Source: Ectothiorhodospiraceae bacterium
GTDB lineage: Bacteria > Pseudomonadota > Gammaproteobacteria > XJ16 > Halofilaceae
Direction: 5' to 3'
DNA: 42,991 bases
NCBI GenBank assembly: GCA_007134775.1
Contig: SLKC01000077.1
Span: 1 to 42,991 of the forward strand
A program made the translations under genes and the position numbers. Below, piece by piece: positions 27,619 through 31,021 of this stretch. The first letter of the stretch is position 1, and each line of letters begins with the position of its first letter. A model generated the notes under the pieces. It did not search any database and was not told the DNA's origin. It saw only the letters and a program-made list of their open reading frames with translations.

Positions 27619-27641
27619 TGAATGATATGGTATAACACTGC
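27619..27641. promoter_or_regulatory. candidate Zur operator overlapping an extended -10 promoter
   Basis: The 23-bp stretch matches the gammaproteobacterial Zur box (GAAATGTTATA-N-TATAACATTTC, recalled from memory) at 16 of 22 fixed positions. One half-site, TATAAC at 27631-27636, is perfect. The extended -10 TGG-TATAAC (27628-27636) lies within it, so a bound repressor would block transcription. It is 25 bp before the ABC ATPase ATG. The metal-binding nature of the downstream proteins supports the idea, but binding is inference. Confidence 0.45.
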
Positions 27642-27665
27642 CGTCGGCACTCAGGAGACGCGACC

Positions 27666-28340
27666 ATGACCACCGCTGCCGCCGCTGCTAGCGCAACTGC
27701 CGCCATCGATGCCCAGGGGGTTTCGCTTGAGCGTGGCGGGAGCGCTGTGCTCGAAGTCCCCGCCTGGTTCCTGCCTCAAGGGGAGCACGTACTGATTCGC
27801 GGCGCCTCGGGCAGTGGCAAGACCACACTACTCCATCTCGTTGCGGGGCTGGAGCCCGTCGGCACCGGCACCATCCGGGTACTCGGTACGCCCGTATCCG
27901 AACTCGACCATCGCGCTCGCGACCGTTTCCGCGCGCGCAACATCGGCCTGGTTTTCCAAGATTTCCATCTGCTCACGGGGCTCACTGTCGAGGAGAACCT
28001 CCGGCTGCCACTCTGGTTTTCCGGTTGCTCGATCGGAGCGGATGAGATCGGCAATCTACTCGATCGACTCGGAATCGACGGCCTGCTACGGCGCCACCCC
28101 CATCAACTCAGTCAGGGTGAGAAGCAGCGCGTCGCCATCGCCCGCGCGGTGGTCCACCGCCCACGGCTCATCCTCGCAGATGAGCCCACCTCGGCCCTGG
28201 ATGATCGCAATGCCGAAGGCGTGCTGGACCTGCTTCGCGCCGAGGCCCGAGCCTCGGGAGCGAGCCTTGTCACCGCGTCGCACGACAGCCGGCTCAAGAG
28301 CCACTTCGAGTACCATCTCGCGCTGGAAGCTCCGTCATGA
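27666..28340 (+). CDS. ABC transporter ATPase, LolD/MacB family (probable zinc-linked system)
   Basis: The 224-aa ATPase has Walker A GASGSGKTT (residues 46-54), Q-loop Gln98, signature LSQGE (148-152), Walker B LILADE with catalytic Glu173, and the H-loop His206. GLVFQDFHLLTGLTVEENL is typical of the LolD/MacB/FtsE group that works with FtsX-type permeases. Its stop overlaps the permease ATG by 4 bp. Such pairs use ATP hydrolysis to drive periplasmic movements of the permease (mechanotransmission) rather than to move a solute through a channel. The His-rich permease and the Zur-like operator suggest a zinc role by analogy with ZrgBC-type systems. An Ala-rich N-terminus is unremarkable. Confidence 0.9.
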   Translation: MTTAAAAASATAAIDAQGVSLERGGSAVLEVPAWFLPQGEHVLIRGASGSGKTTLLHLVAGLEPVGTGTIRVLGTPVSELDHRARDRFRARNIGLVFQDFHLLTGLTVEENLRLPLWFSGCSIGADEIGNLLDRLGIDGLLRRHPHQLSQGEKQRVAIARAVVHRPRLILADEPTSALDDRNAEGVLDLLRAEARASGASLVTASHDSRLKSHFEYHLALEAPS

Positions 28341-29737
28341 ACACCTTCTCCCTTGCCGTGAGCCAACTCGCGAGGCGCCCGCTGCAGACGGCGCTCAACG
28401 CCGTGGTGATGAGCCTGGGTATCGCGATGATCACGGTGCTGCTGCTGGGTCACAGTCAGTTCCAGGAACGCATGCAGCAGGATGGCCGCGGCATCGACCT
28501 CGTGGTAGGTGCGCCTGGCAGTCCGATGCAGCTGATTCTCTCCAGTGTATACCATGTCGATATCCCGACCGGGAATATCCCGTTGGGACCCGCACGCGAG
28601 GTGATCGAGCGCGAGCCGGCGGTGGAACGGATCATGCCCGTTGCCCTTGGAGACAATTTCGAAGGCTACCGCATCGTGGGCACGCGGCCATCCTATGCAC
28701 AGCACTACGGCGCGGAGCTGGCCCGTGGGCGCATGTGGGAACAGAGCATGGAGGCCGTCGTCGGGGCCGAGGTGGCACGCGAGACCGGGCTCGGCGTAGA
28801 TGACTCCTTCGCCGGCGCTCATGGGCTGGGTTCGGGGGGGCACGTCCACGACTACGCCCCTTACGATGTTGTCGGCGTGCTCGATTTTTCTGGCAGCGTC
28901 CTCGATCGGCTGATTCTTACGCCAGTGCAGAGTGTCTGGGACGTTCACGACCACGACCACGACCACGACCACGACCACGACCACGACCACGACCACGACC
29001 ACGACCACGACCACGACCACGAGCACGAGCACGACCACGACCACGACCACGAGCACGAGCACGAGCACGAGCACGAGCACGAGCACGAGCAGGATCACGG
29101 AGATCACGGAGATCACGGAGATCACGGAGATCACGGAGATCACGGTGAATACGGTGAGCACGGGCACGACGAGCCGGAATATGCGGCGGAAGAGCAGATC
29201 ACTGCGCTCCTGGTGAGTTACGAATCGCCGATCGCGGCCGCCCGGCTGCCGCGCGAGATCGACGAGAACACGCCCTGGCAATCGGCCGAACCCGCCTATC
29301 AGACGGCCCGGCTGATGACCCTGTTGGCACCGGCGCGTGCCGGAGTCCAGGTCATCGGTGGGTTGCTCATCGTGGCCTCACTGCTGAGTGTCTTTGCGGT
29401 GCTGTACCAGAATCTGCGCGAGCGCCGTTACGATTTCGCGATAATGCGCGCCATCGGCGCGGGGCCCGCCCACGTATTCCGGCTCACCCTTGCCGAGGGG
29501 ATGCTGATGGTTGTGCTGGGACTCGGCCTCGGGCTGCTGCTCGGGCACGCCAGCATCGCGCTACTGGGTGAGTTCACCGCCGCGGGTCGGGCACTCGGCT
29601 TGAACGGCCTGACGTGGGTAACTGAGCAGGGTGCGCTGGTCGTCGGCGTCCTTGCAGCCGGTGTGCTGATCGCCCTCGTCCCAGCATGGCTTGCGTCCCG
29701 GACCGAGCCCGGGCCCACGCTCCGCCGCGGTTATTGA
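28337..29737 (+). CDS. FtsX/MacB-type ABC permease with a long His-rich periplasmic tract
   Basis: The 466-aa permease has the MacB/FtsX layout. It has one N-terminal membrane helix (about 20-38), a large periplasmic domain (about 40-330) and three C-terminal helices (about 337-357, 384-408, 431-451). NLRERRYDFAIMRAIGAGP is the coupling segment. Inside the periplasmic domain, residues 204-277 are almost pure His with Asp, Glu or Gly: HD x12, HE x2, HD x3, HE x7, then DHG x6, with 32 His in all. A His pair (GGHVHDY, about 169-171) precedes it. Such a tract should bind zinc, nickel or copper. The gene overlaps the ATPase gene. The membrane topology is predicted by eye. Confidence 0.9.
   Translation: MNTFSLAVSQLARRPLQTALNAVVMSLGIAMITVLLLGHSQFQERMQQDGRGIDLVVGAPGSPMQLILSSVYHVDIPTGNIPLGPAREVIEREPAVERIMPVALGDNFEGYRIVGTRPSYAQHYGAELARGRMWEQSMEAVVGAEVARETGLGVDDSFAGAHGLGSGGHVHDYAPYDVVGVLDFSGSVLDRLILTPVQSVWDVHDHDHDHDHDHDHDHDHDHDHDHDHEHEHDHDHDHEHEHEHEHEHEHEQDHGDHGDHGDHGDHGDHGEYGEHGHDEPEYAAEEQITALLVSYESPIAAARLPREIDENTPWQSAEPAYQTARLMTLLAPARAGVQVIGGLLIVASLLSVFAVLYQNLRERRYDFAIMRAIGAGPAHVFRLTLAEGMLMVVLGLGLGLLLGHASIALLGEFTAAGRALGLNGLTWVTEQGALVVGVLAAGVLIALVPAWLASRTEPGPTLRRGY
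28946..29146 (+). repeat. in-frame microsatellite coding for His-Asp/His-Glu/Asp-His-Gly
   Basis: Hexamer units CACGAC and CACGAG run from 28946 to 29089: 12 CACGAC, 2 CACGAG, 3 CACGAC, 7 CACGAG. After one CAG codon, six 9-nt units GATCACGG(A/T) run from 29093 to 29146. Unit lengths of 6 and 9 keep the frame whatever the copy number, so length changes would alter only the size of the metal-binding tract. Blocks of identical units point to expansion by slippage or unequal exchange. Confidence 0.97.
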
Positions 29738-29942
29738 CGACGCCGAATCAGCGGTTGCGTTCGCTGCAATAGGGGATGGGAACCCGCAATCGGGCCGGAG
29801 TGTCGTAGGGGCCAAGCGCGCCGCAACCGACCGGGAGCGACCGCCCGGCGCTCGATGAGGTGGCCAGGAATGCGTATGCTCGCAGGGTCGGGGGCTCTTG
29901 TTGCTCCGCTCATGTACCGCCATTCTGGAGGTCCTTTCGGCC

Positions 29943-30497
29943 ATGTGGAGACACCCGCACACTCCTGTCGTACTGGTGCTGGCACTCACACTCTCGGTCC
30001 TGCCCTCTGTGGCACCCGCAGAGCCAGCCGGTGCCGACGAATTTGAGCCTGGCAATATGGCCGAGGAGCCACCGCCCGAGGACGCGAGCTTCGAGGATTA
30101 TCACCATCTTGTCCCGGAGACCCCGGAAGGCGGGGTATCGTGGGACAAGCTGGGCGCGACCGAGGAGCGCGTCGAGGTCATCGATGGCTTCAGTCACGTT
30201 CGACCGGTCTTTTCCGACGAGGTCGAGGCGCTGGACGGTAAGACGGTCAGAATTCGCGGATTCATGTACCCGCTTGAACAGGAGGCCCGACAGCGCGAGT
30301 TCCTTTTCACTGCGCTGCCGCCGAGCTGCCCGTACTGTCTTCCCGCCGGGCCCGGCTATATCATCGAAACGCACGCCACTGAGCCGATTGAGTTCACCTG
30401 GGACGCGGTTTTGCTTGAAGGCACGCTCGAACTCGAGGAGGAACATCCGCACGGACTGTTTTTCCGCCTCACTTCGGCTCGGAAGTCGGACGCCTGA
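29943..30497 (+). CDS. exported DUF3299-like protein with a CxxC motif
   Basis: The 184-aa protein starts at the ATG at 29943, 10 bp after GGAGGT. A signal peptide (hydrophobic core VVLVLALTLSVLPSVA, likely cleavage after APA near residue 26) sends it to the periplasm. An acidic linker is followed by LDGKTVRIRGFMYPLE, typical of DUF3299-like domains, and by PPSCPYCLPAGPGYIIETHA with Cys129-x2-Cys132, which could bind a metal or form a disulfide. HPHGLFFRL closes the domain. It is 205 bp downstream of the permease on the same strand; that gap has a possible -10 (TATGCT near 29873) but no clear terminator. A role as periplasmic partner of the ABC system is inferred from position. Confidence 0.75.
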   Translation: MWRHPHTPVVLVLALTLSVLPSVAPAEPAGADEFEPGNMAEEPPPEDASFEDYHHLVPETPEGGVSWDKLGATEERVEVIDGFSHVRPVFSDEVEALDGKTVRIRGFMYPLEQEARQREFLFTALPPSCPYCLPAGPGYIIETHATEPIEFTWDAVLLEGTLELEEEHPHGLFFRLTSARKSDA

Positions 30498-30511
30498 CCG
30501 CAGGAGGGCTC

Positions 30512-31021
30512 ATGGCGTCAGTGGAGATCCGATGTGACTCAACGGCTGACATTGCCCAGCCCATCGATGTCGTTTGGCAGTTCGTCGTGGTGAATTTCTT
30601 TGACAATTATCCTCGCTGGTCACCACAGGTCCGGTCGGTCCGCAAGCTCACGGACGGACCCATCGCCATTGGAACCAGGGGCCACCAGGAGCGCATCGAT
30701 CACGGTCGGCGCACCGAAAGCTATTTCGTGGTCAGTTCGTTCGTTCCTCGCGAGCAGATCTGTTTCGAAGGGGAAGACTACCCCTACCGCATCCGCTACG
30801 CCCTTGAACCGGTCGACTACGGCACCCATCTTACGTTCTGCTTCGAACTGACGTCTCTGCCTGGAGCGGTACGGCCCTTCCGCTCGCTGGTCCAGCGCGT
30901 GGTCGAACGGACCACCGCATCGGTTGCCGAGGATATCCGTGAGCTGGTCGAGCGGAGAGGCAGCGGTGGGGTCGAGCCGGCTACGGCGCCTTATCCCGAC
31001 GGAGGAACGCGCTCCGGCTGA
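30512..31021 (+). CDS. SRPBCC (START-like) family protein
   Basis: The 169-aa protein begins with the typical SRPBCC opening: VEIRCDSTADIAQPIDVVWQFV, then FDNYPRWSPQVRSVRKL, the middle strand YALEPVDYGTHLTFCFELT, and a long C-terminal helix VVERTTASVAEDIRELVERR. The fold binds hydrophobic ligands in a deep cavity; the ligand is unknown. AGGAGGG precedes the ATG. It begins 14 bp after the DUF3299-like gene, so the two are almost certainly cotranscribed. Confidence 0.82.
   Translation: MASVEIRCDSTADIAQPIDVVWQFVVVNFFDNYPRWSPQVRSVRKLTDGPIAIGTRGHQERIDHGRRTESYFVVSSFVPREQICFEGEDYPYRIRYALEPVDYGTHLTFCFELTSLPGAVRPFRSLVQRVVERTTASVAEDIRELVERRGSGGVEPATAPYPDGGTRSG

Follow-up and report, generated by a model that had tools for sequence, protein, structure and literature searches.

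What does an ATP-binding cassette (ABC) transporter do when its permease carries a long histidine-rich loop and the zinc-binding protein ZrgA of related systems is missing? This question is raised by a gene cluster in a contig of 42,991 nt (SLKC01000077.1, assembly GCA_007134775.1) of an Ectothiorhodospiraceae bacterium; this whole stretch is called the window. We consider it fairly probable that the cluster encodes a Zur-repressed zinc-starvation machine with the MacB/LolCDE fold (type VII ABC), which has no ZrgA and belongs to a clade whose members mostly would bind zinc through the permease loop. The genes, the fold, the loop, the permease clade, the zinc-related neighbourhood, the Zur-like box and the absence of ZrgA have been computed here, and the cluster is probably switched on under zinc scarcity. 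In the published nomenclature, the permease is ZrgB and the ATPase is ZrgC. The features of the cluster are as follows.

27624-27636, unstranded: Zur-like operator GATATGGTATAAC, two mismatches to GTTATANTATAAC
27666-28340, + strand: ABC ATPase, ZrgC/PA4064-like (Pfam ABC_tran; best NCBIfam model LolD, below its cut-off)
28337-29737, + strand: FtsX/MacB-type permease with four transmembrane helices and a His-rich periplasmic loop (Pfam, loop composition, tree, fold)
28946-29163, + strand: in-frame 6-bp and 9-bp tandem repeats coding for the (HD/HE)n and (GDH)n tract (repeat analysis)
29943-30497, + strand: exported DUF3299 protein of the ZrgE/PA4066 family with the CxxC motif SCPYC (PF11736; nearest PDB entry 4hsp)
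30512-31021, + strand: SRPBCC/Polyketide_cyc2 protein (Pfam Polyketide_cyc2)

The ATPase and permease genes share 4 nt, a gap of 205 nt separates the permease gene from the DUF3299 gene, and the SRPBCC gene comes another 14 nt later; given the 205-nt gap, a single transcript across the cluster is something that we infer. The permease matched the Pfam families FtsX (53 bits) and MacB_PCD (43 bits), and the best fold matches of its model were LolE and MacB, followed by HrtB, YbbP, BceB and FtsX. By Pfam, NCBIfam and model fold, this is a MacB/FtsX-type permease with a separate ATPase, as in ZrgABCDE and PA4063-PA4066. The original prediction had named a LolD-type ATPase, and an ABC ATPase is indeed present with LolD as its nearest NCBIfam model, but the label itself was not retained, because the score of 162.7 bits is about half of the equivalog cut-off of 307.75; the LolC/E cut-off was likewise missed (30.9 vs 362.45 bits). 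The organisation of MacAB-TolC was not found, since ATPase and permease are two genes and no MacA neighbour was recognised in the window, nor was that of ZnuABC, since the permease is of the FtsX type and ZnuA was not found in the window operon. Three znuA-family genes are present in the same genome, all away from this operon. The exported CxxC protein that had been predicted could be named as DUF3299 (PF11736, 29.1 bits with a cut-off of 22), the family found in ZrgABCDE and PA4063-PA4066, and its best fold match in PDB is the PA4066 structure 4hsp, which has an oligonucleotide/oligosaccharide-binding (OB)-like fold with function unassigned (PMC8561739).

The predicted cluster of 32 His in the periplasmic domain of the permease proved exact: 32 of the 86 loop residues are His, and the remainder of the protein contains 2.1% His. 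The loop DNA is composed of (CACGAC)25.7 at 28946-29099 and (GATCACGGA)7.9 at 29093-29163, both in frame. In an AlphaFold model, loop residues 212-283 are disordered (predicted local distance difference test, pLDDT, <50) and the loop is placed between the transmembrane helices TM1 (15-50) and TM2 (319-362). Since this is its place in a MacB-type fold, the loop is predicted to be periplasmic. The corresponding loop of the Pseudomonas relatives, by contrast, has about 30 residues with 1-2 His, and the first-sampled ZrgB permease loops have 3-7% His.

The distribution of the loop was followed on a maximum-likelihood tree of permeases, from which the loop had been removed, and a loop was called His-rich when it held five or more His that made up 15% or more of its residues. 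The window permease lies within a clade of 39 sampled rows (support 100/100; 24 Alphaproteobacteria, nine Gammaproteobacteria and six Bacteroidota), and the ZrgB/PA4065 relatives form a separate clade, also with 100/100 support, outside which it falls. His-rich loops of 19-111 residues were found in 30 of the 39 members at one shared alignment position with differing repeat patterns, and such a tract is missing from true ZrgB permeases. The nearest kin of the window permease are those of genomes G288 and G347, with 61-62% identity to the latter when the loop is left out. A fusion unique to this genome is thus rejected, as is a loop in every clade member. The tree contains at least five switches between the His-rich and the His-poor state, so that the loop is readily lost or regained. 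On the evidence of this tree, the ZrgA-less clade with the His loop is a relative of ZrgBC-E and spans three large groups. The new architecture that had been proposed does exist as a ZrgA-less His-loop design, but as a feature of a whole clade and not as an innovation of this genome. A search of open-licence papers turned up no description of a His-rich permease of this type, and the clade is apparently an undescribed, widespread branch of the ZrgABC/PA4063-4066 family. Two further permeases should be mentioned: a ZrgB-type permease with an EHEHEHEH ((EH)n) tract (L108 7226-8553, genome G348, without ZrgA), whose reading frame is broken near 8020 and which may be an independent gain that is not relied on here, and a Phenylobacterium permease (L003 7053) present as two overlapping open reading frames (ORFs), from a frameshift or a sequencing error.

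The absence of a DUF2796 gene, as originally predicted, has been extended to the whole genome (99.61% complete), where a profile search with PF10986 gave no match to ZrgA. The search works, since it recovered ZrgA in six of seven genomes with ZrgB-type permeases, among them two from the genus of the window (G001 and G002). ZrgA was found in none of the 17 first-sampled genomes of the His-loop clade, and zrgA was absent from every clade operon inspected. Three of the 39 clade genomes, all alphaproteobacterial (G455, G666 and G744), have ZrgA as well, encoded on other contigs; in G666 and G744, which were inspected, it sits in a complete separate ZrgB-type Zrg operon. The two systems are therefore distinct and able to coexist, and the idea that a genome with the His loop never holds ZrgA is rejected. 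In the window's genus, one system or the other was present and never both (three genomes seen). Among gammaproteobacterial genomes the overlap of clade and ZrgA is 0/9, where about 1 is expected from 41/369 ZrgA-positive genomes, a difference that is not significant alone.

A Zur-like operator over the promoter had been predicted, and the box GATATGGTATAAC does overlap a -10-like TATAAC (27631-27636), though it is weak. It is the only site within two mismatches of GTTATANTATAAC in the window (0.04 expected); such a site occurred in 4 of 100 shuffled windows and in 0 of 1000 shuffles of the 250-nt region upstream of the operon. Zur would bind at this box. The closest relatives have stronger boxes at the corresponding place, just upstream of the ATPase gene (L101 7251, L102 3638). 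The upstream box is perfect in G347 and has one mismatch each in G288, G284 and the Phenylobacterium operon, and the shuffle P is <=0.001 for each of these and for the window. Nine hits per strand within two mismatches were obtained in the window's genome at eight places, of which the following four precede zinc genes.

Boxes before znuA/zur (contig C8, with the Zur of this genome encoded at 14035-14373) and before the window operon
Box on contig C122: a His-rich, outer-membrane-like protein is encoded next, and after it a second znuABC
Box on contig C83: before a COG0523 gene (598.2 bits vs the ZigA cut-off of 600)

The C83 box is strong and the gene behind it encodes a ZigA-close COG0523 GTPase (L095 2098-3342). 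A further site (L094 1453, contig C62) precedes a zinc-type alcohol dehydrogenase-like gene by about 27 nt, and a gene of this type directly follows the operon in L103; both may be chance. His-rich exported, probably outer-membrane proteins are encoded near znuA genes and Zur-like boxes on C122 (L068 1330-2754, no Pfam or NCBIfam match), in L144 (9207-10376, no NCBIfam match) and in L139 (2030-3187), and are possible zinc outer-membrane proteins.

Genes of zinc homeostasis recur beside or near the clade operons: zur in L101, L104, L007 and L139, znuABC in L007 and L139, and COG0523 genes in L001, L002, L098, L103, L104 and L148. ZigA-equivalog GTPase genes are divergent from the operon in the closest kin (L101, L102). 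MerC-family membrane proteins adjoin the operons of L001, L003, L004 and L005, which suggests a zinc and not a mercury role for them, and TonB receptors are near in L002 and L003. No lipoprotein-sorting context was seen for any clade member, and lipoprotein sorting has no support as the function. This comparison of homologue neighbourhoods, which had been proposed as a check, and the Zur boxes make the predicted zinc response of the operon well supported at the level of comparative genomics.

We infer the zinc binding by the loop, the direction of transport and the role of the DUF3299 protein. When zinc is low, Zur would leave the predicted box at 27624 and the operon would be expressed. The disordered His/Asp/Glu loop of the permease would capture zinc, or a partner that carries it, on the periplasmic side, and ATP hydrolysis would shift the periplasmic domains by mechanotransmission, as in other type VII ABC transporters, with the metal released or handed on. 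The DUF3299 protein would be a periplasmic partner, and the whole machine would support uptake by ZnuABC.

Several points weigh against this reading. MacB-fold machines mostly export or do mechanical work, which makes import uncertain. So does the proposal that PA4064/4065 form a MacB-type pyochelin-cobalt exporter (PMC11481552). The window box is the weakest of the zinc-gene boxes of its genome (16 vs 26-35 bits), sites within two mismatches are no more frequent genome-wide (9 per strand) than sites matching the reversed control pattern (10 per strand), and no box matching the GTTATANTATAAC-type consensus was found upstream in G172, G230, G114, Sphingobium and Chitinophaga. The loop is not obligatory, since nine of the 39 clade members are His-poor, and in six inspected alphaproteobacterial ones with short loops (L140-L143, L145, L146) no substitute binder is visible. 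These six are the chief argument against a strict substitution rule; loop or ZrgA as the sole possibilities are rejected, since these six carry neither. In L145 (4822-7239) the gene order is rearranged, with the DUF3299 gene upstream of the ATPase gene and not downstream. In V. cholerae, ZrgA is essential and its own His loop, which adds zinc sites, is dispensable (PMC9820375). The predicted replacement of ZrgA by the tract is thus partly supported: it is plausible from the frequency of the tract, its fixed position, its absence in ZrgB and the alternative binders encoded beside three His-poor permeases (see below), but this dispensability and the six members without substitute oppose it, and a tract alone may not do the job of ZrgA.

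In two other His-poor members (L139, L144), the same operon begins, under a perfect Zur box, with a gene of the znuA family whose product has a His-rich loop. In L008, a Sumerlaeia outlier with a His-poor permease, an ORF with a lipoprotein-like signal and a His-rich tail (3509-4198, no Pfam match) overlaps the ATPase start by 4 nt. These cases are compatible with a modular zinc presenter, and we tentatively propose that a conserved MacB-like core with DUF3299 takes interchangeable presenters, namely the permease loop in most cases and otherwise ZrgA, a His-tailed lipoprotein or a protein of the ZnuA type.

The same observations can be read differently. The loop could be a passive periplasmic store or buffer of zinc, which helps ZnuABC indirectly, while the core ABC uses other binders such as ZnuA. 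The dispensable ZrgA loop, the znuA genes in the L139 and L144 operons and the three znuA-family genes in the window's genome fit this, but it leaves unexplained why the loop is fixed at one site of a permease instead of in a soluble protein, and we regard it as unlikely. Alternatively, the system could be a Zur-controlled exporter of a metallophore-metal complex or of excess cobalt in zinc starvation, with the His loop as a gate or metal sensor that tunes its activity. The MacB/LolE fold, the heme exporter HrtBA among the fold matches, and the PA4065 mutant data on pyochelin and cobalt (PMC11481552) point that way; against it, neither a MacA-like gene in the operons inspected nor a metallophore gene beside the operon was recognised, and zrgA is needed for growth of a V. 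cholerae znuA mutant in low zinc, the operon being read as an importer (PMC9820375). We judge such an exporter to be rather improbable. That the tract is a low-complexity microsatellite expansion in an ordinary LolCDE/MacB-like ABC, with no zinc role, is very improbable: its near-perfect 6- and 9-bp repeats, the wide variation of loops in length and sequence and the His-poor members would suit it, but not the 30 loops with differing repeats at one position, the linkage to zur, znu, zigA and Zur boxes, or Lol scores far under the cut-off.

If presenters are interchangeable, ZrgA belongs to a larger zinc-starvation family as one module that members can do without, and is not the binding protein by which that family is defined. 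The zinc-starvation machine preferred here also offers, in its ZrgA-less clade, a core alone, with the predicted metal site attached to it and removable with the loop, by which the substrate-binding role of ZrgA and import or export by the core become testable. The likely range of the family is extended to Bacteroidota and many Alphaproteobacteria, where annotations probably list the clade genes as transporters of lipoproteins or macrolides.

As for the remaining genes, the SRPBCC protein predicted in the cassette is encoded there, but its gene was not found beside the operon of any relative; it has no support as a component and is probably outside the system. Directly downstream (31101-34738) are an HtrA/DegP-like protease and then a response regulator and sensor kinase, for which membership of the zinc operon is not indicated.

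Among known systems, LolCDE and MacB share the fold of permease and ATPase, but differ in the Lol scores, in the zinc neighbourhood and, for MacB, in the separate genes and the lack of MacA. ZrgABCDE of Vibrio cholerae and V. parahaemolyticus has in common the ATPase, the MacB-like permease, DUF3299 (ZrgE), a Zur-type box, of which the window has a weak candidate, and a His/Asp/Glu-rich zinc-binding sequence, a function that is predicted for the window tract. It differs in that the window system has neither ZrgA nor ZrgD and carries the His-rich sequence inside a permease of a separate clade (25-33% identical); single deletions of zrgD and zrgE had no effect in V. cholerae (PMC9820375). The DUF3299 proteins differ as well: in the His-loop clade, C or H stands at +3 from their invariant Cys (SCPYC in the window), whereas ZrgE has H at +2 (CIH), and a metal or thiol role of this motif is possible. 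PA4063-PA4066 of Pseudomonas aeruginosa shares the gene set, with the structural match to PA4066, except that the window system has no homologue of PA4063, and the permease loops differ as described above. The Zur-repressed znuGHI operon of Caulobacter crescentus, described as an ABC-2 system with two permeases (PMC4176598), is divergent from a TonB receptor, like the Phenylobacterium operon (L003); it is set apart by this description and is probably a different system, since the DUF3299 model gave no match in the Caulobacter control genome. Finally, although UreG is a cytoplasmic nickel GTPase and an unrelated protein, it carries a His stretch in genomes that have no UreE (Haas et al., 2009, PMC2770081), a precedent for a histidine stretch in cis where a separate metallochaperone is missing.

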